Shown here: positions 2,362 to 34,929 of the stretch, in pieces
Numbering within the stretch: the stretch's first letter is position 1
How the letters are laid out: the number at the start of each line of letters is the position of its first letter
From: a virus
Strand: one strand, 5' to 3'
DNA: 34,929 nt
IMG/VR virus record: IMGVR_UViG_3300028025_000008
Span: 1-34,929 of that record
The notes under the pieces: model-generated
Database searches by the model: none
Told to the model about the DNA's origin: nothing
What the model saw: only the letters and a program-made list of their open reading frames with translations
Translations under genes and position numbers: made by a program

Positions 2362-3348
2362 ATGATGACAGTCAATCTTACGCTTGAGCAACTTGACCAA
2401 TTTGGGTCATTGGATAGCCTCACGCTAAGTTTAGACTCGTCTGATTGGAACTCGACTACACAGAAGAATGTGACAGGCCCTTGGGTGCTAGAGGGCTTAG
2501 ATGCTTTCAGTTCTAGCATTGATGAACTAGCAATTAGCCTAGATTCAGAACTATGGGCTACCGCATATTTGTGGGATGGTGTCGCAGATATAACTGCTAA
2601 TGCTACTGTTATCGCTAATGCCGATAAAATATTTGGTGGCATAGCTTCTGTAACTTGTGAGGCTACAGTAACTGCTGATGCTTCCATTGTTTACTACGGC
2701 AATGCTTCTATCACAGGAAACGCAGATGTTACGGCATCTGGTCAGCGTGTTCAGTTTGGTAGTGGCGACATACAGGCTACAGCAAGCGTAACTGCTGATG
2801 GGCAGAGAATAGCAAATGGCGTTGCTAGTATTACTGGTAACGCTGATGTAACTGCTCTTGGCACTAAGGTTAACTTTGCTAGTGCAAGTATTACTGGAAA
2901 TGCTGATGTAAGCGCATCTGGTCAAATTGTCCAAGCCGCTAGTGCAAGTATTACTGCTAATGGTGTCTGTGAAGCTAACGCAGAGAGAATCCAGTTAGGC
3001 GTTGCGTCTATTACTGGTGATACAACAGTAACTGCTAATGGTGGATTGACTGTAGGTGCTGTAGCAAGCGTAGAGGCTAATGCTAATGTTGTCGCTAGTG
3101 CGTCTGCAATTTATGCAGGGGCAGCCTCGGTGTCAGGTCTAGCAACAATTATAGCTAAAGGCGTTATCCTTGGTGACAATTGGACTCCAGTAGCAGGTGA
3201 CACTAATACTTGGACACCAGTTAGTGCTGATTCAAACACTTGGACACTTGTTATTAGAGACACAAACACATGGACTCCAGTATCTGCTAATGACAATACA
3301 TGGACGACACAGATTCAAGGAAGTAATACATGGCTCAGACAAGGATAA
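2362..3348 (+). CDS. Repetitive virion protein with two repeat blocks
   Basis: 328 aa. Residues 6-29 and 42-65 are two copies of a leucine/aspartate motif (LEQLD or LEGLD, then S-D-x-L, then SLDS, ending in W). Residues about 75-265 are degenerate repeats of roughly 20 residues around ASITGNADVTASG, an alternating pattern typical of beta-solenoid or beta-prism fibres. The last 55 residues repeat an 11-residue unit of the type DTNTWTPVSA. A structural role at the tail or connector is inferred from this and from position. The gene overlaps the nozzle gene by 19 bases. ATG at 2362 and ATG at 2365 are both possible starts. Confidence 0.72.
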   Translation: MMTVNLTLEQLDQFGSLDSLTLSLDSSDWNSTTQKNVTGPWVLEGLDAFSSSIDELAISLDSELWATAYLWDGVADITANATVIANADKIFGGIASVTCEATVTADASIVYYGNASITGNADVTASGQRVQFGSGDIQATASVTADGQRIANGVASITGNADVTALGTKVNFASASITGNADVSASGQIVQAASASITANGVCEANAERIQLGVASITGDTTVTANGGLTVGAVASVEANANVVASASAIYAGAASVSGLATIIAKGVILGDNWTPVAGDTNTWTPVSADSNTWTLVIRDTNTWTPVSANDNTWTTQIQGSNTWLRQG

Positions 3349-6536: not shown

Positions 6537-7802
6537 ATGGCTGGACTATTAGACATTTTTGGAACTAGCGGTGCAGACACAATGGGTCTGCTTGGTATGT
6601 CACCTGCTGACATTGCTCGTAATCGTGAAGACGCACAAGCACAAGCCTTGTATGCCCTAGCAGGGCGTTTATTCCAAGGTGGGAATACTGGTCAATCTAT
6701 TGTTGAGGGCTTGCAGCGTGGTCAGCAAGCCTATAAAGGCGGTATGCAAGACACATTGCAAAGCCAGTTACAGAATGTTCAGTTGGCTGACATGATTCGT
6801 AAGCGTAAGTTAGAGCAACAACAATTAGCTGAACAACAACGTATTCAAGGTGTTATCCAAGGTGCTGTAACCAAGCCTCAAGAGATGTATGGTGAGGACA
6901 TGATGGGTCAGCAAGTAGGTCAAGGCATGACTGCTGGTGGCTTTGATTTGCAACGAGCAATTCCTCAATTGATGGGTTCTGCTGAAGGTCGCAAAGCATT
7001 AAGTGAGTTGGTCGCATCTCAGAAAGCAATGCAACCAGAGTACAAAGAAGTTAATGGTGCGCTTTATGAGATTTCTGCTGGTATGCCTCCTAAATTGGTT
7101 GCTGGTTCTAAAAAGCGTGATACTGTAACAGTTGGAAATGTTGTTCTTGATAAAGACGATATGCGTGTTCTTTATACCGCACCTGATGCACCTGCTGGCT
7201 CAATTAAAGAGTTTCAAGACTTTATGAAATTGCCTAAAAATGAACAGGCAGCATACATTCAATTACAAGAACAAAAGCGTCCAAGCACAACAATCAATAT
7301 GCCATCAGAAGGTGAGCGTAAGTCAGCCGTTCTTGCAAGCAGATTGAACTTCAGCGTTGGTCAAATGAATCAAGCTATTGGCGCAGACCCTAAAGCAGCT
7401 ATGCCAAATACTGCGGCAGAGATTGCTCGTTTTGTTTCTCAAACAGATTTCTTGCCAAACAAACTAAATACAGAGCAACGTCAAATTGTTGAGGCGGCTC
7501 AAGAGGATATTCTTGATGCAGCATTAACATTAGGAACTGGTGCAGCTTATAGCCGTGAGCAGTTGGCGGGATATAAGAAATCTTATTTCCCACAAATGGG
7601 GGATAGCGCAGCAGCAGTTAAAACAAAACAAGAGCGTTTAAATAATTTGCTTAAATCTGCTGAAGTTGCCTCTGGTCGTGCTGCAAAAGAAATTACTGCA
7701 CCAATACCTAAATTGCCAACTACACCTGCTGCAAGTGGTGGATTGCCAAGTCCAGATGCTATTCAAGCAGAAATTGAAAGACGCAAAAAAGGCGGTGGAT
7801 AA
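6537..7802 (+). CDS. Probable ejection (internal virion) protein II
   Basis: 421 aa. The N-terminus holds the helix DIARNREDAQAQALYALAGR, followed by Gln-rich amphipathic helices (residues 60-130) and a helical C-terminus with SAVLASRLNFSVGQMNQAIG and AALTLGTGAAYSREQLAGY. The last feature resembles the C-terminal segment of ejection proteins in other podoviruses, from memory. No enzymatic motif is seen. The ribosome site is weak. Its TAA shares one base with the ATG of the next gene, so the pair is coupled. Confidence 0.65.
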   Translation: MAGLLDIFGTSGADTMGLLGMSPADIARNREDAQAQALYALAGRLFQGGNTGQSIVEGLQRGQQAYKGGMQDTLQSQLQNVQLADMIRKRKLEQQQLAEQQRIQGVIQGAVTKPQEMYGEDMMGQQVGQGMTAGGFDLQRAIPQLMGSAEGRKALSELVASQKAMQPEYKEVNGALYEISAGMPPKLVAGSKKRDTVTVGNVVLDKDDMRVLYTAPDAPAGSIKEFQDFMKLPKNEQAAYIQLQEQKRPSTTINMPSEGERKSAVLASRLNFSVGQMNQAIGADPKAAMPNTAAEIARFVSQTDFLPNKLNTEQRQIVEAAQEDILDAALTLGTGAAYSREQLAGYKKSYFPQMGDSAAAVKTKQERLNNLLKSAEVASGRAAKEITAPIPKLPTTPAASGGLPSPDAIQAEIERRKKGGG

Positions 7803-9364
7803 TGGATTTAACTCAATTATCTGATAGTGACCTGTTGGCTTTGCAATCAGGAGACTTAACTAAAGTCTCTGATGCTGGTTTAGCCATTCTTAATCAAGGT
7901 CAACCTAAGTCTCCAACACTCAGAGAATCATTTGAGCGTGGTGCTGGTCTAACTTATCGTGCTGTTGCCCCTACATTAGCTGGCGCACAGATTGGCTCGT
8001 ATGGTGGCCCATTAGGTGCGCTTGTAGGCTCAATGGCTGTTCCTGCTGCTGATGCAGTCAATGCGTTATTAAATGTAATTGCTTCACCATTTACTGAAAA
8101 GCGATTGATGCCAGCATCTCAAGCTATTCAAAACTTGATGACTCGTTCTGGTGTACCTGCTGCGCCAGAAACACAAACACCAACTGAGCGTGTTGTTGGT
8201 GGTGGATTAGAAGCAATGACAGGTGTGGCTAGAACTATCCCTGCTTTGATTAAAGCATCTACTACTGCTACTTCCCCTGTTACTCGTGCAGTTACAGAGC
8301 AATTAGCTGTAGCACCTAAGACACAAGCGATTGTGACTCCTACGGCTGTTATGTCTGGTCAAACAGTTACAGAGGCTACTGGTAATCCTTTGTATGGCGC
8401 AGCTACTACATTGGCTACAGGTACTGCTGGTAGTGTTAAGCGTCCTCAAAAACAAGAGGCTTTATCTACACAAGCATTAGACAGAATTGCAACAGACAGA
8501 TATGACCAACTTCAAAGGTCTGGTGTTCAGTTAAAAACTGATGAGTTTGTTAATGCAATGGATGATATTGCAAAAGGTTTGAGACAAGAAGGCTATACGC
8601 CTAAAGCGTTTCCAAAAGTTGCTGGTGCTATTGAAGAACTTACTTCTACTGCTCAACCTAAAGATTGGACTGAACTTCAAGCCTTGCGTAAAATGATTCG
8701 TAGTGGTCAAAAGAGTATTGAGCCAGAAGAAAGACGAATGGCATCTATTCTTTTGGATGACTACGATAACTACCTGATGACTGTCCCTAAAGAATCAATT
8801 GCTTCTGGGGATATGAAAAACGCAGGTCAATTGTGGTCTGAGGCTCGTAACGCTTATTCAAAGATGAAGAAGTCTGAAGTCTTTGAAGATATGCTTAACG
8901 AAGCAAAGCTAGACAGAAGTAAATTTACTCAGTCTGGTGAAGAAAACTCACTTGCTAAACAATTGCGTCAACTTGCTAAGAATGACAAGAAAATGCGATT
9001 GTTTACCAAGGATGAACAAGATGCTATTGAGCAAGCTGCCAAGGGTGGTAATGTTCAGAATATGTTGAAGTTCTTTGGTCGCTTTGCACCTACTGGTGTC
9101 GTGCCAGTTGGTCTTAGTGTTGGAACTACAGCACTAGCACCTATGATTGGAATTCCTTTAACTATTGGTGCTGCTGGCTCTCGTGGGTTAGCTACTAATA
9201 TGCGTAGAGGTAGCGTAGAAGACTTGACTAACATGATGCGTACTGGTGGCATCCCACAAACAGTTGGTAGTCCATTTAGGGCTATAACACCAGTAACTGC
9301 TAGAGGTCTTTTGTCTATGGAAGACTTAGACCAAGAACAGCGTAATCTCTTAGGTATCCAATAA
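7802..9364 (+). CDS. Probable ejection (internal virion) protein III
   Basis: 520 aa, the largest of the three. An Ala/Gly-rich hydrophobic stretch at about residues 55-85 and another at about 420-455 could enter membranes, as expected of proteins that form a channel through the cell envelope. The central part (residues 220-400) is a charged helical region. No lytic transglycosylase motif is visible. Order, size and composition support an ejection role, not direct family recognition. It ends eight bases before the fibre-anchor gene. Confidence 0.62.
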   Translation: MDLTQLSDSDLLALQSGDLTKVSDAGLAILNQGQPKSPTLRESFERGAGLTYRAVAPTLAGAQIGSYGGPLGALVGSMAVPAADAVNALLNVIASPFTEKRLMPASQAIQNLMTRSGVPAAPETQTPTERVVGGGLEAMTGVARTIPALIKASTTATSPVTRAVTEQLAVAPKTQAIVTPTAVMSGQTVTEATGNPLYGAATTLATGTAGSVKRPQKQEALSTQALDRIATDRYDQLQRSGVQLKTDEFVNAMDDIAKGLRQEGYTPKAFPKVAGAIEELTSTAQPKDWTELQALRKMIRSGQKSIEPEERRMASILLDDYDNYLMTVPKESIASGDMKNAGQLWSEARNAYSKMKKSEVFEDMLNEAKLDRSKFTQSGEENSLAKQLRQLAKNDKKMRLFTKDEQDAIEQAAKGGNVQNMLKFFGRFAPTGVVPVGLSVGTTALAPMIGIPLTIGAAGSRGLATNMRRGSVEDLTNMMRTGGIPQTVGSPFRAITPVTARGLLSMEDLDQEQRNLLGIQ

Positions 9365-9372
9365 GGACTAAC

Positions 9373-9651
9373 ATGGCAAAGACTAAAATTAGTGAGTTCA
9401 GCAGTAATCCTGCTAACAACACAGATATTGACGGAATTAACATTGCAGAGGGCTGTGCGCCATCTGGAATTAACGATGCTATTCGAGAGTTAATGGCTCA
9501 GTTAAAGGATTTACAAGCAGGTACTAGTGGAGATACAATCCCCATTACTGCTGGTGGTACAGGCGCAAGTACAGCAGGTGCAGCATTAACGGCACTTGGT
9601 GGCGCAACAACAGGCAAGGCTATCGCTATGAGCATGGTTTTCGGAGGTTAG
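9373..9651 (+). CDS. Tail fibre N-terminal anchor protein
   Basis: 92 aa. KISEFSSNPANNTDIDGINI, then GCAPSGINDAIRELMAQLKD and PITAGGTGASTAGAALTALG, is the N-terminal module that normally starts long phage tail-fibre proteins. Here it ends after the GGTGAST region with no fibre shaft, followed at once by an endonuclease gene. It may be a free anchor for the adhesins downstream, or the remnant of a fibre cut by endonuclease insertion. AAGG precedes the start. Confidence 0.82.
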   Translation: MAKTKISEFSSNPANNTDIDGINIAEGCAPSGINDAIRELMAQLKDLQAGTSGDTIPITAGGTGASTAGAALTALGGATTGKAIAMSMVFGG

Positions 9652-9653
9652 TG

Positions 9654-10145
9654 ATGTGGTCTGAAGAACAGCGTCAATTAGCTAGAGAGCGTTCGCTTCA
9701 AAGATGGACTGACCCTGTTTATCGTGAAAAAGTTATATCTGCATCTAAAAAGCCTCCTTTTTGTCCTGATTGCGGTGAGGTAAAAATAGAAAACTTTTAT
9801 GTTTCTAAACAAGGAAGAAGAACAAATGCTTACTGCAAATCTTGTCACAAAACAAGAACTAATAAAAATTGGCACTCTAAAACTATTGTTGAAAAACAAG
9901 CATCTCGTGTAAAAACAATGTATGGTATTACACCAGAAGAATATACAATGATGTATGAAAAACAAGATGGTAAGTGTGCTATTTGTGGCAAAGCACCTAC
10001 AACTTTAAGAGGATTACATACTGACCATAATCATGTAACTAATAAAGTTAGAGGATTATTATGTCATGGATGTAATACTGGCATCGGTGCTTTGAAAGAA
10101 GATACCGAAATTCTTTCAAACGCAATTAAATATCTCAGGAGTTAA
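9654..10145 (+). CDS. HNH endonuclease, recombination endonuclease VII type
   Basis: 163 aa. An N-terminal zinc-finger pair (CPDCGE, then CKSCHK) is followed by YGITPEEYTMMYEKQDGKCA, CAICGK, the DHNH catalytic motif and GLLCHGCN, the standard endonuclease VII (PF02945) layout. Free-standing members of this group are usually homing endonucleases, although the T4 enzyme resolves branched DNA. I prefer the ATG at 9654, six bases after GGAGG inside the previous gene, over the GTG at 9651. Its A/T-rich codons differ from the fibre genes on both sides, which supports insertion. Confidence 0.9.
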   Translation: MWSEEQRQLARERSLQRWTDPVYREKVISASKKPPFCPDCGEVKIENFYVSKQGRRTNAYCKSCHKTRTNKNWHSKTIVEKQASRVKTMYGITPEEYTMMYEKQDGKCAICGKAPTTLRGLHTDHNHVTNKVRGLLCHGCNTGIGALKEDTEILSNAIKYLRS

Positions 10146-10146
10146 T

Positions 10147-10521
10147 ATGGCTGCACCAAATATTGTCGCTGTCGCAACTATCACGGCAAAGACTGCATAC
10201 GCAACACCCTCAAACACATCAGCAAACGTATTGCTTGCAAACGCTGCCTCATCTGGCAAGGTTTTCAAGGTCAATATGGTCATTGCTGCCAACGTGGATG
10301 GCACAAGTGCTTATGACACAACTGTAGCGGTGAATACTGCTGCTGATGGCTCTGGCACTTCATACCCATTGGCTTCAACTGTCTCTGTTCCTCCAGATGC
10401 TTCTTTGATTGTCTCTGACAAATCAACAGCTTTCTATCTGGAAGAAAACAAATCAGTTGTTGTTACCAGTAGCACAGCGTCAAAAATAGCCTACACGATT
10501 TCATACGAAGAACTCTCATAA
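10147..10521 (+). CDS. Small virion protein, immunoglobulin-like or beta-sandwich
   Basis: 124 aa, almost free of charged residues in its first half, with alternating hydrophobic/Thr/Ser strands and the segment DASLIVSDKSTAFYLEENKS. This looks like a small beta-sandwich decoration or fibre-associated protein. I cannot name a family. AGGAG lies inside the end of the endonuclease gene, so the gene may once have followed the anchor gene directly. It stands first in front of the glycine-rich adhesins. Confidence 0.65.
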   Translation: MAAPNIVAVATITAKTAYATPSNTSANVLLANAASSGKVFKVNMVIAANVDGTSAYDTTVAVNTAADGSGTSYPLASTVSVPPDASLIVSDKSTAFYLEENKSVVVTSSTASKIAYTISYEELS

Positions 10522-10531
10522 GGACTGAATC

Positions 10532-11401
10532 ATGTCCAAAAGAGTAGGTGGAATTCTAAGTGCTGGAAGAAACGGCATTAACTACCCTGTCACAGCGGTG
10601 GAATACTTATGTGTGGCTGGCGGTGGTGGGGGTGGTGCTTCTTTTGGTGGAGGTGGCGGTGCTGGTGGATTATTAACCGCTACTGGCTACGCTGTAACTA
10701 TTGGCTCAAGCATTACAGTTACTGTAGGTGCTGGTGGTGCGGGGTCAACATCTGCAAGCAATTTAGGTACTGCTGGAGTTAACTCAACTATTGTTGGTGG
10801 CACAACCATAACTAGTAATGGTGGTGGTGGTGGTCAGTCAAATACAAATCAGACTGTTGTTCAAGGCGGTAGTGGTGGCGGTAACTCAGGAACTGGCGGT
10901 GGTGGTACTACCGCTGGCACAGGCACATCGGGTCAAGGCAACAATGGTGGAGTGCATAGCACTTCCGCACCAGCATATGGTTCTGGTGGTGGTGGCGGTG
11001 CTGGCTCTGTTGGAGTCAATGGTACTTCAGCATATGGTGGTAGTGGTGGAACTGGATTAGCGTCTAGTATTTCTGGCGCACAAGTTTTTTATGCTGGCGG
11101 CGGTGGCGGTAATACTTATACAGCTACTGGGGTATTGGGTATTGGTGGCGCAGGAGGTGGTGGTGGAGCCGCTACATGGACAGGATTGACAGGTATTGCA
11201 AATACTGGCGGTGGTGGCGGTGGCGGTGGTGGAACTGATGCAAATATAGCGGCAGGTGGTGCTGGCGGCTCTGGCATCGTAGTCATCCGCTACCCATCTT
11301 ACTTAGCCCCTGCTACATCAACAACTGGCTCACCAGAAACTTATGTCACAGGCTTTTGGCGTGTGTACAGATTCGTTGCTTCTGGCACGATTACTTTCTA
11401 A
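10532..11401 (+). CDS. Glycine-rich tail adhesin, type A copy 1
   Basis: 289 aa. A short N-terminal tag (SKRVGGILSAGRNG) leads to VEYLCVAGG, then glycine runs separated by strands (SITVTVGAGGAG), closing with GSGIVVIRYPS and a tail ending in SGTITF. Such polyglycine domains are known from receptor-binding adhesins, for example gp38 of T-even and S16-like phages, where polyglycine II helices form the body and variable loops bind the host surface. Receptor recognition is inferred from this. Three paralogues follow. AAGG precedes the ATG. Confidence 0.82.
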   Translation: MSKRVGGILSAGRNGINYPVTAVEYLCVAGGGGGGASFGGGGGAGGLLTATGYAVTIGSSITVTVGAGGAGSTSASNLGTAGVNSTIVGGTTITSNGGGGGQSNTNQTVVQGGSGGGNSGTGGGGTTAGTGTSGQGNNGGVHSTSAPAYGSGGGGGAGSVGVNGTSAYGGSGGTGLASSISGAQVFYAGGGGGNTYTATGVLGIGGAGGGGGAATWTGLTGIANTGGGGGGGGGTDANIAAGGAGGSGIVVIRYPSYLAPATSTTGSPETYVTGFWRVYRFVASGTITF

Positions 11402-11409
11402 GGGTAGAT

Positions 11410-12255
11410 ATGGCTACAGGTTTATTTACTCTTAAACAAGTTAACCAAGCACTTGCACAAAAGGCATGGACAGGCCCACAGAAAACTGGTTGGGTTGAGT
11501 ACCTTGTTGTTGCGGGTGGTGGTGGTGGTGGCGGTGCGGCTGGTGGTGGAGGTGCTGGTGGTTTATTAACTGGCATATTGCCTGTAGTTACTGGTTCATC
11601 TATTACTGCTACTGTAGGCGGTGGTGGTGTGGGAGATGCTAACGGGGTTAATTCAGTATTTAGTTCTATTTCTTCCACAGGTGGTGGAAAAGGCTCACGA
11701 TACGACACAAATACTGCGGGTAGTGGCGGTTCTGGCGGGGGCGGTGCAGGAATGGGCGGTTCTTCGGGAGGACAAGGTACAGCCAATCAAGGTAATGCAG
11801 GCGGTACTGGTTTTATAAGTGGAAGTGTTTTTTCTTCTGCTGGCGGTGGTGGAGCTGGAACTATTGGTTTCACTGCATTTTCTGGCGTTTGCGGAAATGG
11901 CGGTGCTGGTATAGCAAGTGCTATAACAGGAACTGTTACTACTTATGCTGGCGGTGGCGGTGGCGGTGGAAGTTCTGGATTTGCTGGGGGTGTTGGTGGT
12001 GTAGGGGGAGGCGGTTCTGGTGGGTTTGGTGGAACAAGTAATGGCACAGCAGGAACTGCAAACACAGGTGGTGGTGGTGGCGGTGGAGGTGCTGGTGGAG
12101 GCGTAGGCACAGGTGGCACAGGCGGCTCTGGCATTGTCATCATTCGCTACCCAAGCACATTTGCTGATGCTGCAAGCGTAACTAACGGCACAAAGACAAC
12201 TGCTAACGGCTACACAATTTACACATTCTTGACTAGCGGAAGTATCACATTTTGA
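11410..12255 (+). CDS. Glycine-rich tail adhesin, type B copy 1
   Basis: 281 aa from the ATG with AAGGG upstream. A start at 11356 would run back into the previous gene. Its N-terminus (LFTLKQVNQALAQKAWTG) differs from type A and matches the gene at 14621. The polyglycine body, the GSGIVIIRYPS signature and the SGSITF end are shared by all four copies. It is the last rightward gene before the leftward endonuclease, with only two bases between the stops. Confidence 0.82.
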   Translation: MATGLFTLKQVNQALAQKAWTGPQKTGWVEYLVVAGGGGGGGAAGGGGAGGLLTGILPVVTGSSITATVGGGGVGDANGVNSVFSSISSTGGGKGSRYDTNTAGSGGSGGGGAGMGGSSGGQGTANQGNAGGTGFISGSVFSSAGGGGAGTIGFTAFSGVCGNGGAGIASAITGTVTTYAGGGGGGGSSGFAGGVGGVGGGGSGGFGGTSNGTAGTANTGGGGGGGGAGGGVGTGGTGGSGIVIIRYPSTFADAASVTNGTKTTANGYTIYTFLTSGSITF

Positions 12256-12257
12256 TG

Positions 12258-12764
12258 TTAATCTCTCAAAACAGGGTTGAATGTATGCAGTTTTGCTTTG
12301 GCGGCACAGTAAGCGGCATGAGCAAGTTCGGGCGTACAAAATCTACCAAGCCTAATGTTTTTGCGATTAACAACAATTTGAGCGCACCATTTATTGCGAT
12401 GACCATCCCAAGAAACGCCAACAAACCCATGTTTGTTTCTTTTTGTGGACGAAAGGTTTTGAGCGTTTTGAGAAGCATTAGCCTCTCTCAAATTGTCAAA
12501 CCTATCGTTGCTTGGGTTGCCATCAATGTGGTCAATGTTTTTGTCAGGCCAACGCCCATGAACATAAAGCCATGCCAATCGGTAAGCCAAATAGCGTGTG
12601 GAATTGATGGTAATCGTCAATCGTCCATCAGCGGCTCTGTATCCAGCAACATCACCAATTTTGATGTTTCCTTTTCTACATACACGCCATGTAAACAATC
12701 CAGTTTCGGAATCGTAATGCAACAACTCACGCACAAATTCTGGGGTAAGATTAGATTTAGCCAT
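12258..12764 (-). CDS. HNH homing endonuclease with AP2 DNA-binding domain
   Basis: 168 aa, the only leftward gene in the structural half. It has a small N-terminal domain (DSETGLFTWR), an HNH_3-type motif (NIDHIDGNPSNDRFDNLREA) at about residues 75-100, and a C-terminal AP2-like domain (GVSWDGHRNKWCAQI, then LGRFCTPELAHAAY). AP2-HNH enzymes are typical mobile homing nucleases. The start was chosen at the ATG with a perfect AAGGAG four bases upstream. A longer frame to 12830 lacks this. Orientation and position between two adhesin genes mark it as an inserted element. Confidence 0.92.
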   Translation of the reverse strand: MAKSNLTPEFVRELLHYDSETGLFTWRVCRKGNIKIGDVAGYRAADGRLTITINSTRYLAYRLAWLYVHGRWPDKNIDHIDGNPSNDRFDNLREANASQNAQNLSSTKRNKHGFVGVSWDGHRNKWCAQIVVNRKNIRLGRFCTPELAHAAYCAAKAKLHTFNPVLRD

Positions 12765-12852
12765 GATGCTCCTTATAAGCGGATTGGTCAGAGGCTCGGC
12801 AGTGTTAGCGCACTTGTCGGGCTTCGTCATTTTAACACCAGTGAGGTAAAAA

Positions 12853-13716
12853 ATGTCTAATTTATTAGGTGGATATTTGTCGGCAACATTTAACCCTTTA
12901 TCTGGTGCGCCTACTGCTGTTGAATATCTAGTGGTCGCTGGTGGGGGTGGGGGTGGTGGTCAGGCCAATAATAATCAAATGGGTGGTGGTGGAGGTGCTG
13001 GTGGATTACAACAAGCAGCGGCCTTTGCTGTTTCTACAGGCTCGGCTATAACAGTAACTGTTGGTGCGGGTGGTGCGGGTGGCTCTAATGCAGCTGGCAC
13101 AGTAGGAGTAAATTCTGTATTTGGCGGTGTTACTGCAAGTAGCGGTGGCGGTGCTGGTGGTAGAGGTAGTGTTGGTGGAAATGGTGGCTCTGGTGGCGGT
13201 GGTAGTACAGGGTCATTTGCTGGTGGCTCTGGAACGTCTGCACAAGGCTTTGATGGTGGCTCTGGAAACGCTGCGGCAACTACTACTTCCGCTTCTGGTG
13301 GCGGTGGTGGAAGTGGCTCTATTGGCTTAAATGCGTCAAGTGCTGGAATAGGTGGTTCTGGTGGTGCTGGTACTGTGTCTACTATTACAGGCGCAAGAGT
13401 TTTTTACGCTGGCGGTGGTGGCGGTGCTGGCTACGCTGGTCAAGGATTAGGCGTAGCTGGTGGTGGGTCTGGGTCGGTTGCTGGTGGAGTAGCGGGAGCA
13501 GCAACAGCCAATAGTGGTTCTGGTGGTGGTGCTGGCGGGTATTCAAGTGCCATAAACATTGCTACTGATGGTGGTAATGGAGGCTCTGGCATCGTGATTA
13601 TTCGTTACCCTGCATCACAATCAGCACCAACTGCAACAACTGGTTCACCACAAATCAACTACGCTGATGGCTACCAAATCTACACTTGGACATCATCTGG
13701 AACTGTGACATTCTGA
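12853..13716 (+). CDS. Glycine-rich tail adhesin, type A copy 2
   Basis: 287 aa. The N-terminus (SNLLGGYLSATFNPLSG, then TAVEYLVVAGG) parallels the gene at 10532, and the polyglycine body, GSGIVIIRYPA and SGTVTF end are the shared adhesin frame. The glycine-run lengths and loop residues differ from copy 1, as expected of diverging receptor-binding loops. GAGG lies eight bases before the start. Its TGA overlaps the ATG of the next endonuclease. Confidence 0.82.
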   Translation: MSNLLGGYLSATFNPLSGAPTAVEYLVVAGGGGGGGQANNNQMGGGGGAGGLQQAAAFAVSTGSAITVTVGAGGAGGSNAAGTVGVNSVFGGVTASSGGGAGGRGSVGGNGGSGGGGSTGSFAGGSGTSAQGFDGGSGNAAATTTSASGGGGGSGSIGLNASSAGIGGSGGAGTVSTITGARVFYAGGGGGAGYAGQGLGVAGGGSGSVAGGVAGAATANSGSGGGAGGYSSAINIATDGGNGGSGIVIIRYPASQSAPTATTGSPQINYADGYQIYTWTSSGTVTF

Positions 13717-14294
13717 TGGAAACAAAGTTTTGTCCTAAATGTGAAACCGAAAGGTCGGTTCTTGACTATCACAAAGATAAATCAAGAAAAGACGGATTGT
13801 TTTCGTACTGCAAAACTTGTAACAAAGCCCATGTAAAAAAATGGCAACAAGCTAACCCAGAAAAAGTTAATGAAGCTAGTAGAAATTTGTACGCAAAGAA
13901 TCTTGAACACTCAAGGTCTATGCGTAGAAATCGGGTAAATAACTGGTATTTGAGGCATCAAGATAAAGCCCGTCTAAGGTCAGCTCAATATCGTGCAGAC
14001 CATCCAGAAGTTAAACGATTTGCTCAAGCCAAGCGCAGGGCACAAAAACAAGGCAATGGAATTTTTGAAATCAGTAAATTAGAATTATTTAAATTACTGA
14101 ATCAGCCGTGTATGGGGTGTGGTTCGTTGACAAATCAAACCATAGACCATGTAATACCAATATCTAAGGGTGGTACTCACTCAATTGGTAATCTTCAAAC
14201 TTTGTGTGTAAGTTGCAATAGCAGTAAACACACAAAAACTATGTATCAATGGAAAATTGAAAGGACTCAAAATGCCGCACTTTGCCAAGGTTGA
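13716..14294 (+). CDS. HNH endonuclease with N-terminal zinc finger
   Basis: 192 aa from the ATG overlapping the previous stop. An N-terminal CPKC/CKTC pair (residues 5-8 and about 31-34) leads into a basic helical linker. The C-terminal HNH domain has CMGCG, DHVIPISKGGTHSIGNLQTL and CVSCN, including the catalytic His-Asn pair. It is A/T-rich and runs 23 bases into the next gene. A homing role is likely from its place inside the adhesin array. No intron boundary is visible around it. Confidence 0.9.
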   Translation: METKFCPKCETERSVLDYHKDKSRKDGLFSYCKTCNKAHVKKWQQANPEKVNEASRNLYAKNLEHSRSMRRNRVNNWYLRHQDKARLRSAQYRADHPEVKRFAQAKRRAQKQGNGIFEISKLELFKLLNQPCMGCGSLTNQTIDHVIPISKGGTHSIGNLQTLCVSCNSSKHTKTMYQWKIERTQNAALCQG

Positions 14295-14619
14295 AAACGG
14301 AATTGTCACGCAAGTTATTGTGATTGACCAAGAAACATTAAATTTGGGACATTGGGGTGACCCCTCACTTTGGTTCCAAACGAGCTACAACACTCACGGC
14401 AACCAACACCCAGAAGGTCGCCCATTGCATAAGAACTATGCTGGCATTGGCTACACATGGGATGGAACAGGCTTTGCCCCTCCACAACCATTTGCATCTT
14501 GGACTAAAAGTGCTGAGACATATCTGTGGGATGCACCTACACCTATGCCTACTGATGGCAAGATGTATCGCTGGGATGAGCCAACATTGTCATGGGTTGA
14601 AGTAACTCAAGGAGTCTAA
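14272..14619 (+). CDS. Tail fibre-associated / adhesin accessory protein
   Basis: 115 aa. The opening PHFAKVENGIVTQVIVIDQE and the later GYTWDGTGFAPPQPFASW stretch are seen in small proteins encoded beside tail fibres in many phages, often annotated as virion or fibre-assembly proteins. The internal ATG at 14272 was chosen because AAAGGACT lies directly upstream. Repeated short Trp-Asp units (YTWDG, YLWDA, YRWDE) form the C-terminal half. A chaperone or capping role for the adhesins is possible. Confidence 0.72.
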   Translation: MPHFAKVENGIVTQVIVIDQETLNLGHWGDPSLWFQTSYNTHGNQHPEGRPLHKNYAGIGYTWDGTGFAPPQPFASWTKSAETYLWDAPTPMPTDGKMYRWDEPTLSWVEVTQGV

Positions 14620-14620
14620 C

Positions 14621-15499
14621 GTGGCTCAATATAGCGGCATATTTACGCTGTCTCAGGCAAGCCAAGCCATTAAGGACAACAACTGGACAGGACTGTTTCC
14701 ACAGAATGTTGAATTCTTGGTGGTAGCTGGTGGTGCGGGTGGTGGAAACAATCTGGCTGGTGGTGGCGGTGCTGGCGGTTTGCTTGCAGGATTTTCTGGC
14801 ATAACAACAGGCTCTCAACTTTGGGTGACTGTTGGCGGTGGCGGTGCTGGTTCTACAAGTTCATCTTCTGCTGGAACAAGCGGTGGTGCTTCAGTTTTAC
14901 TGGCTACATCATCAGCTGCAACAACTGGAAACTTTGTTGCTAGTGGAGGTGGTGGAGGTGGAAGTAATAACTCAACTTCTGGTGTTTCTGGCGGCTCTGG
15001 TGGCGGTGCTTCACAATCTACAGTTGTTGGTTCTGGAACATCGGGACAAGGTAATGCTGGCGGTAGTGGTGCAACTGGAGTTGCTTATGGCGGTGGTGGT
15101 GGTGGTGGTGCAGGAACTATTGGTCTAAATGGCGTAACAGGCTCTAGTGCTGGCAATGGCGGTGCAGGGATTGCTTCTTCTATTTCTGGCTCTGTTGTTA
15201 CTTATGCTGGTGGCGGTGGTGGAGGGATACTTTCTGGAACTTCTGGCACAGGTGGTGTAGGTGGTGGTGGTGCGGGTGGTTCTGTTGCAGTAGGCGCAAA
15301 CGGCACAGCTAATACAGGCGGTGGTGGCGGTGGTGGTGCTTCTGGTTTTAATGGCGGCACAGGCGGTAGCGGTATCGTCATCCTCCGCTATCCAGACACA
15401 TTCATAGCCGCTACAAGCACAACAGGTTCACCAACAATCACTGTGGCTGGTGGGTTTAGAGTTTATAAATTCACGGCATCTGGCTCAATAACTTTCTGA
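14621..15499 (+). CDS. Glycine-rich tail adhesin, type B copy 2
   Basis: 292 aa from a GTG start with AAGGAG upstream. Its N-terminus (GIFTLSQASQAIKDNNWTG) matches the type B gene at 11410: both carry TL-x-Q-x-x-Q-A and an N/A-W-T-G end. The polyglycine core with GSGIVILRYPD and the SGSITF end is shared by all copies. It is the last receptor-region gene before lysis. Confidence 0.82.
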   Translation: MAQYSGIFTLSQASQAIKDNNWTGLFPQNVEFLVVAGGAGGGNNLAGGGGAGGLLAGFSGITTGSQLWVTVGGGGAGSTSSSSAGTSGGASVLLATSSAATTGNFVASGGGGGGSNNSTSGVSGGSGGGASQSTVVGSGTSGQGNAGGSGATGVAYGGGGGGGAGTIGLNGVTGSSAGNGGAGIASSISGSVVTYAGGGGGGILSGTSGTGGVGGGGAGGSVAVGANGTANTGGGGGGGASGFNGGTGGSGIVILRYPDTFIAATSTTGSPTITVAGGFRVYKFTASGSITF

Positions 15500-20309: not shown

Positions 20310-20918
20310 TTAACCTTTCGCATTTTTCAATGCACTTCTTACTTTACTAGGAAGTAAAGTCCATAGAGCAACTTTCTGTTCGCTGTCTAAGTTCTCTGCT
20401 TCCAACTTCACCCAAGCACTCTTAGGTTCTTCTTTCTCACAGAGAGCAATTAACTCCATTGCTAACTCTCTGAGATAATTCTGTTCATCCTCTGGGATGG
20501 TATCCATTGCGCCTTGTGTGGGCGTGATGATTATCTTTTCTTCCTTGATGGGCGCAGAGGAATCCAGAGCGTCATGCTCAACGATTTCCATTGCTGTCAT
20601 CCAGAGATACCTGCGCTGATATGTTTCTACAGCACCAAGATTTTGAATAGCGTGTGCGCCTTTTAAATTAGCTTCTACCATTGGTGAAGTAATCACAATG
20701 TTAGTGCCATCATCTACGTCTGTGATTGTAAGACTTGCATATTCAGAGTCGTAGGAAATAACTCCACACAATCCTTGACCATGAAAAATCTCGTTAATCT
20801 GAGGCAAAAAGTCACCCAACTCAAAATACTGGTAGCCAGCAAACTTGTTGTGACCTGACTTCTTGAGTGCCATTTGTTGCAAAAACATTCTTGCTTGCAT
20901 TAACTTCTTGTGTACCAT
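20310..20918 (-). CDS. erf: Erf-type single-strand annealing protein
   Basis: 202 aa. The N-terminal domain (residues 1-120) has KKSGHNKFAGYQYFELGDFL and GAVETYQRRYLWMTAMEI, hallmarks of the ERF superfamily (P22 Erf, PF04404), which forms rings, coats single strands and anneals them. The C-terminal third is acidic and helical, as expected for a partner-binding tail. AAGGAG precedes the ATG. It stands in the middle of the leftward early operon, ahead of the SSB-like and nuclease genes, so the phage carries its own recombination system. Confidence 0.85.
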   Translation of the reverse strand: MVHKKLMQARMFLQQMALKKSGHNKFAGYQYFELGDFLPQINEIFHGQGLCGVISYDSEYASLTITDVDDGTNIVITSPMVEANLKGAHAIQNLGAVETYQRRYLWMTAMEIVEHDALDSSAPIKEEKIIITPTQGAMDTIPEDEQNYLRELAMELIALCEKEEPKSAWVKLEAENLDSEQKVALWTLLPSKVRSALKNAKG

Positions 20919-26266: not shown

Positions 26267-26436
26267 ACAACATGAAAATGACAAAAGCTGGTCAGAAAAA
26301 GGTTGGCAAAGTGATGGGTGAGTACAAAAAAGGTACTCTGCACTCTGGCAAAGGTGGCAAGGTTGTAAAGAGCCGTGACCAAGCAATTGCCATTGCTATG
26401 GCTGAAGCTGCTAAGAAAATGGGCAGGATGAAGTAA
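26263..26436 (+). CDS. DUF6496-like small basic protein
   Basis: 57 aa from a GTG in a GTGA overlap with AAGG seven bases before it, or 54 aa from the ATG at 26272, which lacks a good site. KKVGKVMGEYKKGTLHSGKG, then KSRDQAIAIAMAEAAKKMG, is the pattern of the DUF6496 family seen beside phage packaging genes. Lysine-rich; perhaps DNA-associated. Its TAA shares a base with the next ATG. Confidence 0.75.
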   Translation: MNNMKMTKAGQKKVGKVMGEYKKGTLHSGKGGKVVKSRDQAIAIAMAEAAKKMGRMK

Positions 26437-27686
26437 TGCCTAGCTTGCTTGATAGCGCATTAGGATGGATGCAAGACCCAAGACGCACTCAGCAATTGCA
26501 GGGTACAGGCAGGGCAATCCAACAAGGACTGTTAAACATTCAGCAGTCTGATAAGCGTTTTCAAGACTTATTTGACAAGTCATTTGGTGACCCAAAACAA
26601 CCATTTAAAGTTACTGACAAAAAGGCTTTGTCTCAATTAGCCGAAATGACCCAAAGTGGTCTGCTTGGTATGGCTGAAGTTGGTATGTTTGTCGGTGCTG
26701 GCTCTAAGGCATTTGACAAAGCAATGGCTTTTACTGCTACCAAGCTAGAGAAAAAAGGCGTGTCTCCACAGGAAATCTGGAAAGAAACAGGAACTGTCCG
26801 TGGGCCTGATGGTCAATGGAGACAAGAAATTAACGATGCGGAAGCTAAGTTTGTTACCGCACCAGAGATGCTTGATAAGGCAGTATTGCTAAAACAAGGC
26901 ATTGCTGAAAACAAGCAAAAGATTAAAGAATCTAAAGAATATCCTGACTTATTTCCCAAAGAGTTAACTAAGGCTCAGAAGGCATTAAGAGAAGAAAACA
27001 AAGCCAACAAAGAGTTGGTAGATACTTACACATATAACCAAGCATTTACTGGCTCACCTGCAAAACTGGCTATTGAGCATCCAGAACTTTATAGGGCATA
27101 TCCAGAACTTGAAGACGTAAGAGTTATGCAAGGAACAGTAAAGCCTGACTTTCTTGGTGCTTTTATTCCTAAATACAATGCTTTGGAAGTAACTACTGAA
27201 GGCTTAAAGAAAGACCCAAGGTCAACTGCATTGCATGAGATGCAACATGCTATTCAAGAAAAAGAAGGCTTTGCGGTAGGTGGTAATCTTGACACAATGG
27301 CTAGATTGAAATCAACAATCTATGACAAGATTGGAGAATTAAACTCCCAAATGGGGGCATATGTAAAAGCAATGGATGCTTCATCAGACCCTGTTGAAAA
27401 AGCATTGTTAAAACAACAATACGATGCTGCAATGGAAGAAAGAATGAAGTTAGTTCCATTTGCACAACTTGAGCCATATGATGCTTATCGTGCTTTAATG
27501 GGTGAGGCAGAAGCAAGGCTTACTCAAACTCGTAAAGACTTAACTCCAGAAGAACGTAGAAAGTATTTCCCATTTGAGTTTCAAGATAAAAATCTTAATC
27601 CTTATGGTTTAGATGTTCCTGTCAATAGCCTGATAAACTTGAATGAAAGAGGAAACTTAGTTCAAAGTGGATTACTAGGTCAGTAA
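26436..27686 (+). CDS. Polyvalent-type protein with HEMQH zincin domain
   Basis: 416 aa. Residues about 115-135 carry the TGTVRGPDGQWRQEINDAEA motif and residues 210-285 carry HPELYRAYPELEDV and STALHEMQHAIQEKEGFAVG, with HExxH at 267-271. These are marks of large polyvalent protein-associated metallopeptidase domains (LPD group), which travel in proteins injected with phage or plasmid DNA. A helical linker (145-200) and a helical C-terminus follow. The place before terminase suggests a virion-carried effector. Protease activity is inferred only from HExxH. Confidence 0.75.
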   Translation: MPSLLDSALGWMQDPRRTQQLQGTGRAIQQGLLNIQQSDKRFQDLFDKSFGDPKQPFKVTDKKALSQLAEMTQSGLLGMAEVGMFVGAGSKAFDKAMAFTATKLEKKGVSPQEIWKETGTVRGPDGQWRQEINDAEAKFVTAPEMLDKAVLLKQGIAENKQKIKESKEYPDLFPKELTKAQKALREENKANKELVDTYTYNQAFTGSPAKLAIEHPELYRAYPELEDVRVMQGTVKPDFLGAFIPKYNALEVTTEGLKKDPRSTALHEMQHAIQEKEGFAVGGNLDTMARLKSTIYDKIGELNSQMGAYVKAMDASSDPVEKALLKQQYDAAMEERMKLVPFAQLEPYDAYRALMGEAEARLTQTRKDLTPEERRKYFPFEFQDKNLNPYGLDVPVNSLINLNERGNLVQSGLLGQ

Positions 27687-34802: not shown

Positions 34803-34929
34803 TTTTGGAGTATTAAATTATGGCTACCTATCAAACATATACCGCAATCGGTATGAGAGAAGACCTTTCGGATGTTATCTACTCGATTTCACCAACAGAT
34901 GTTCCATTTATGTCTTCCATTGGCAAGAC
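34803..34929. repeat. Terminal direct repeat, right copy (start of capsid gene again)
   Basis: Identical to bases 1-127. It contains the ribosome site and ATG (34820) of the capsid gene and stops in codon 37, so the second capsid start is not a separate gene. Confidence 0.95.

Follow-up and report, generated by a model that had tools for sequence, protein, structure and literature searches.

We examined a 34,929-nucleotide stretch of viral DNA (IMG/VR record IMGVR_UViG_3300028025_000008, positions 1 to 34,929; the window), in which four genes for glycine-rich adhesins, A1, B1, A2 and B2, stand in a row together with the small genes S and P. We consider it likely that these genes form a conserved receptor-binding module, S-A1-B1-A2-P-B2, that is shared by unrelated freshwater tailed phages and in which adhesin bodies, or the loops they carry, are replaced by recombination. 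The four adhesins would occupy fixed slots of this module. Their short slot-specific N- and C-terminal ends would probably serve docking and assembly, and the polyglycine motifs of a TNF-like plus glycine-rich body would hold hypervariable loops that probably contact the host. New bodies or loops would be acquired from other phages with the same module, mostly from the same slot and sometimes from the other slot of the class (A1 with A2, B1 with B2), with the conserved ends and glycine motifs supplying the homology and an ERF-family annealing protein as the likely agent. The outcome would be four adhesins held in a stable rack, their tips changing independently of one another. HNH and GIY-YIG homing endonucleases would use the conserved junctions of the module and may at times carry an adjacent body with them.

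The adhesin genes A1 (10532..11401), B1 (11410..12255), A2 (12853..13716) and B2 (14621..15499), all on the plus strand, are open as a preliminary description of this DNA had reported. All four proteins belong to the Pfam family Gly_rich_2 (PF21722), with scores of 86.4, 69.1, 71.9 and 73.8 bits against a curated cut-off of 24.3 bits, and contain about 32–33% glycine. S, a 124-residue protein (10147..10521, plus strand) present at 76 loci, heads the module in relatives and precedes A1 in ordered arrays. P, a 115-residue protein (14272..14619, plus strand), lies between A2 and B2.

Scans for the module with S, P, A1, B1, B2 and the 520-residue protein encoded upstream covered several hundred loci (given L numbers below), and 471 different glycine-rich genes were typed by their N-terminal ends. 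Among these genes the order A1-B1-A2-B2 occurs in 45 non-identical arrays, and no array has the four slots in any other order; with the small genes included, the order reads S-A1-B1-A2-P-B2. Since 45 non-identical arrays keep a single order, the array is not due to chance. Close relatives usually have all four slots and never in rearranged form; frequent copy-number change is not supported.

The module is found on contigs of about 4 kb up to 335 kb. In most of the 20 module records tested there is no terminase or portal akin to that of the window, two of these 20 contigs encode a contractile-tail sheath, and some phages with a close relative of the upstream protein are free of the array. For these reasons we conclude that the module moves as one piece among unrelated phages, both those with contractile tails and those lacking them. 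The preliminary description singled out such an array in a small podovirus as unusual; it is not confined to this podovirus, as the sheath-bearing contigs show, and in the podophage isolate CRP-143 three glycine-rich genes lie around P. A viral contig of 335,035 bases (L367) has the form S-A1-A2-P-B2; about 2 kb separate two of its module genes, and B1 may be missing or unrecognized there. Against isolated phages, tblastn searches, limited by low-complexity filtering, gave no match for A1 and matched B2 by its C-terminal end alone.

The ends and the bodies of the adhesins behave very differently. Within a slot, mean DNA identity is 0.73–0.80 for the N-terminal ends and 0.70–0.85 for the C-terminal ends, and it falls to 0.50–0.64 between slots. 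The corresponding means for the bodies are 0.59–0.62 within and 0.56–0.59 between slots. By this comparison both ends are slot-specific, and the bodies differ almost as much inside a slot as they do from slot to slot. The pairing of the N-termini of A1 with A2 and of B1 with B2, proposed in the preliminary description, is visible in the sequence, and it recurs in two end trees (72 tips, support 0.994; 275 tips, support 0.999) that separate A1 and A2 from B1 and B2 with no gene misplaced. The same description had all four proteins terminate alike. They do have RYP in common and an ending of the form SG(T/S)(I/V)TF, but the wording of the latter differs: SGTITF in A1, SGTVTF in A2, and SGSITF in both B1 and B2. 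In the N-end and C-end trees the slot label changes three times, the minimum possible, whereas a body tree of 275 tips requires 27 such changes (minimum 3) and six changes of A/B class (minimum 1). A sister phage (L074/G001) illustrates the same point: its DNA is 94.9% identical to the window in terL, 94.8% in the portal gene and 97.4% in the scaffold gene, whereas all four adhesin bodies reach just 62–64%, which is close to background. The module of this sister phage contains no nuclease gene. In alignments of each slot, glycine motifs form a frame with hypervariable stretches in between.

Comparison of individual phages shows swapping of bodies or loops between phages, and sometimes between slots of one class. 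The window and L156 share 83% identity in the B2 body but 60% in the A2 body; the window and L169 share 80% in the A2 body but 66% in B1 and 62% in B2. Because one body is 80–83% alike while others in the same phage pair are 60–66% alike, the slots change independently. In several pairs the bodies resemble each other more than their own ends do, as in A2 of L162 and L175 (body 85%, N-terminal end 66%, C-terminal end 66%), A2 of L005 and L196 (76%, 63% and 65%), and B2 of L101 against B1 of L164 (79%, 56% and 58%). Strong body matches across slots were found in four pairs, with 80–83% DNA identity over 440–678 nt: B2 of L330 (from the contig family of L101) with B1 of L164, B1 of L389 with B2 of L300, A1 of L309 with A2 of L186, and A2 of L309 with A1 of L270. 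All eight genes carry the ends proper to their slot, and all four pairs stay within class (chance 0.02 by a simple count). When these pairs are aligned, the loops are almost the same, whereas some of the framework retains the character of its slot; one such stretch, the strand behind the first glycine motif, has the slot-typical sequence, most clearly in both B pairs. The expectation of a mosaic set with chimaeric genes, voiced in the preliminary description, is thus borne out by bodies exchanged between phages and between slots.

An AlphaFold model of A1 (pLDDT 76, pTM 0.75; 24 aligned sequences) resembles known phage tail proteins. Its best fold match is the tail-tip protein of the Mycobacterium phage Bxb1 (9d93, chain Q; Z 13.1 over 165 residues), which we compared by fold alone. 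It also matches the tip of the tail-fibre protein gp24 of cyanophage Pam3 (7ypx; Z 12.5, rmsd 2.7, 165 residues, 36% identity) and is predicted to have the TNF-like plus glycine-rich domain fold of that type. The next family after the phage tips scores Z 5.2, and the glycine-rich domains of ALK and LTK reach Z of about 5. In Pam3 gp24 (7ypx, 7yfw) the glycine-rich domain has a conserved stem and a hypervariable distal tip that was proposed to bind receptors (PMC9608196), and it shares its glycine motifs and variable tip with the adhesins described here. Pam3, however, has only a single protein of this kind, equipped with a helical trimer domain at its N-terminus, and also has a Tfa-type chaperone, whereas the window encodes four paralogues with ends of about 20–35 residues. 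The A1 model begins with about 19 residues ahead of the first strand that form no helix (pLDDT below 50), and its match to gp24 starts at Pam3 residue 97. We therefore did not class A1 as a fibre of the Pam3 type, since the N-terminal alpha-helical trimerization and docking domain is not present in the model.

In the gp38 adhesins of T-even phages (T2, PP01, S16), glycine-rich motifs and hypervariable loops alternate, and the loops determine receptor specificity (PMC12892980); the same alternation is found in our slot alignments. Unlike the array, gp38 is a single tip protein mounted on gp37 and has a beta-helix domain. No gp38 entry, with its beta-helix and polyglycine-II sandwich fold, was among the Foldseek or second-look matches listed, an absence from the fold search that proves nothing, and no sequence match to gp38 was listed either. 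Roseobacter phage CRP-143, Synechococcus phage Bellamy, Methylophilales phage Melnitz and Pelagibacter phage HTVC025P have one to three glycine-rich genes beside a P homologue, but the A1-B1-A2-P-B2 set, with its characteristic ends, is found in none of them. Two studies describe distantly related Alteromonas phages that share host-recognition modules (PMC10579305) and the shuffling of protein fragments in phages (PMC10684548). Such cases resemble ours in that receptor-binding modules or domains move between unrelated phages. What sets the present case apart is that four paralogues in a fixed row exchange their bodies, and do so even between different slots of one class. The fold itself is common to many uncultured phage proteins. 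The protein type is therefore already known; the ordered set and its pattern of exchange are new.

The preliminary description correctly placed nuclease genes directly after B1 and A2. The former is an HNH_3+AP2 endonuclease gene between B1 and A2 (12258..12830, minus strand), identified by domain matches and by comparison of the junction; the latter is an HNH endonuclease gene between A2 and P (13719..14294, plus strand; PF01844, E = 7.8e-14). Inserts of this kind occur at 20 of 212 different junctions (A1/B1, 2 of 65; B1/A2, 6 of 66; A2/B2, 12 of 81), and they lie between genes, mostly without damage to them. In many insert-free relatives B1 and A2 overlap by 4 nt, and in most of them A2 and P are 8–13 nt apart. 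Occupying junctions that are empty in relatives, the inserted nucleases look like free-standing homing endonucleases, an activity predicted for more than one type, HNH and GIY-YIG (the latter label was read from the sequence, not by profile). The earlier suggestion that their breaks drive recombination finds weak support in the neighbouring bodies. L005 and L089 share with L150 a GIY-YIG gene (99% identical), the adjoining B1 body (96%) and the start of A2 (97–98%), and their A1 and A2 bodies are 57–61% identical. This single case fits homing with co-transfer. Where nucleases are 37–83% alike, however, the neighbouring bodies stay at background level, and we rejected shared homing endonucleases as general drivers. 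Of the 212 junctions, 192 are insert-free, and exchanged bodies are common in insert-free modules; the nucleases are not needed for shuffling. The likelier agent of body exchange would be the ERF-family single-strand annealing protein of the window (20310..20918, minus strand; PF04404, E = 4.5e-10), since relaxed homologous recombination is reported for Rad52-like phage recombinases (PMC3945230, PMC2327257).

These data also bear on other explanations of the array. It seems unlikely to us that a recent A-B duplication in this phage created repeats that are recombined by homing-endonuclease breaks, with intragenomic switching as the result. The A/B pairing is real, two-gene arrays exist, nucleases do sit at junctions, and one of them (L005/L089 and L150) is shared together with the adjoining B1 body. 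Yet the four slots are old and common to the 45 arrays; most junctions are empty, with L101 and L164 carrying exchanged bodies in modules that lack inserts; and no body pair from different slots of one record reaches 75% identity over 150 nt. The window record encodes no resolvase, integrase or reverse transcriptase either, and a set that is switchable within one genome, as the preliminary description envisaged, finds no support. The same inventory makes it very improbable that a diversity-generating retroelement or DNA inversion diversifies these genes in a targeted way. Both typically act on hypervariable receptor-binding genes, but the apparently complete window record has no match to PF00078 (reverse transcriptase), PF00239 (resolvase/invertase) or PF00589 (tyrosine recombinase), a single, weak inverted repeat was found around the array, and the variation extends across all loops.

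We also give little weight to rapid mutation under selection with hardly any recombination, by which the apparent exchange would reflect constrained glycine-rich composition. It is true that, with low-complexity glycine DNA, the bodies of any two genes are about 60% identical as a background. Transfer is nevertheless needed because bodies outmatch their own ends (L005/L196, L162/L175 and L101/L164) and long loop stretches are identical across slots. An improbable alternative, though slightly easier to entertain, is that the module is structural and serves decoration or adhesion to mucus, particles or polysaccharide, its variability arising from phage–phage or environmental pressures. The functions assigned here are predictions from sequence and model, and the same glycine-rich fold occurs in the receptor kinases ALK and LTK. 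The position of the module between the fibre-like gene T and the lysis side, its exchange between phages and the similarity of A1 to tail proteins of Pam3 and Bxb1 favour host recognition instead.

Several points weigh against our reading of a receptor-binding module with exchangeable bodies. The slot HMMs were built from sequences that had first been typed by the pattern of their N-terminal ends, and genes entered the tree sets only if their N and C types agreed, which makes the end trees clean partly by selection. This selection does not affect the gene-order comparison, the body tree or the first comparison of C-terminal ends, but weak nodes in the body tree inflate its counts of changes. 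The class rule draws mainly on that tree, with just four strong cross-slot pairs, two of which involve L309, and selection at a later stage, instead of several recombination tracts, could explain why framework strands within transferred bodies are slot-specific. A structure model of B1 was too weak (pLDDT 62) to be used as a search query. Lastly, the functions of the module are predicted, and the joint presence of all four proteins in the virion is our inference.

As to origin, two-gene arrays of the forms S-A-P-B and S-A-B-P, with A2-like and B2-like ends, indicate that the set likely arose by duplication of an A-B pair, or that the short arrays derive by loss from four. The duplication suggested in the preliminary description is compatible with this history; the direction, gain or loss, is not settled by the FastTree tree, whose root is not fixed. 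In other phages, single glycine-rich proteins carry the A-type motif RYxGGxxSA and then the B-type motif GxWTLxQQxQA...W ahead of VEYL (L384:5546-6487, L418:5188-6144 and L231:3347-5032; also L140, L142, L417, L136, L138, phage DSL-LC04 and others). This arrangement suggests that the A end and the B end each contribute part of a single docking element. More tentatively, the A-B pair may be a co-assembling heteromer split from such an element, in which case the module would comprise two heteromers and present several exchangeable loop sets per virion.

T, at the head of the region (9373..9651, plus strand), is a tail-fibre-like N-terminal protein with PHROG tail-fibre matches. It is a stub of only 92 residues in the window and has 220–1354 residues in many relatives. 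Phages with a 97–98% identical upstream 520-residue protein have such a long T, often without an adhesin array in its place; in L005 the array stands alongside a T of 546 residues. An endonuclease VII-like HNH gene (9651..10145, plus strand; PF02945, E = 1.3e-25), not mentioned in the preliminary description, occupies the T/S junction upstream of the array. It has an 88% identical protein relative at the T/S junction of L084 and is absent from that of the sister phage L074. P matches phrog_7759 (E = 1.3e-24), a family with no function assigned there, and has neither a Pfam match at E ≤ 0.1 nor a convincing relative in the PDB, where searches with P and S gave nothing useful; it is possibly an accessory protein or chaperone. 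Just upstream of the module, positions 6537–9364, which comprise the 3′ part of a 421-residue gene and the entire 520-residue gene, are unmatched in L074/G001 DNA. The 520-residue protein is kept at 98% in other contigs despite this missing match, and the segment appears to be a second exchange region.

The last 127 bases of the window appear to repeat the first 127 (1–127 against 34803–34929), the final 50 bases being found again at 77–126, and the 34.9-kb phage genome is therefore probably complete. Its terminase shares 60–64% identity with the terminases encoded by Methylophilales phage Venkman and by a Manatee Spring phage, and for Pelagibacter phage HTVC010P and its kin the figure is about 47%; the portal belongs to the SU10 family. 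We abandoned naming a host from a genome scan with P as too weak, the metagenome bins being scattered and the best two labelled beta proteobacterium. Among the tail genes, a 328-residue protein (2362–3348) contains repeated ASITGNADVTASG-like units. A 416-residue protein with an LPD23 domain (large polyvalent protein associated domain; 26436–27686) is encoded in this 35-kb phage by a gene with no DNA match in the sister phage.

The host range of uncultured freshwater phages is largely unpredictable. If the module is a receptor-binding set, its slot-locked ends would provide a simple means of finding host-recognition genes in metagenomes, and its bodies would amount to a large natural collection of loop sets already tried out at more than one position and by phages unrelated to each other. 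The class rule, by which A bodies stay in A slots and B bodies in B slots, leads to a direct structural prediction on how these proteins assemble. Should the heteromer proposal hold, the phages would carry independently exchangeable loop sets on slot-locked frames, somewhat like antibodies, in a system run by recombination between phage populations.

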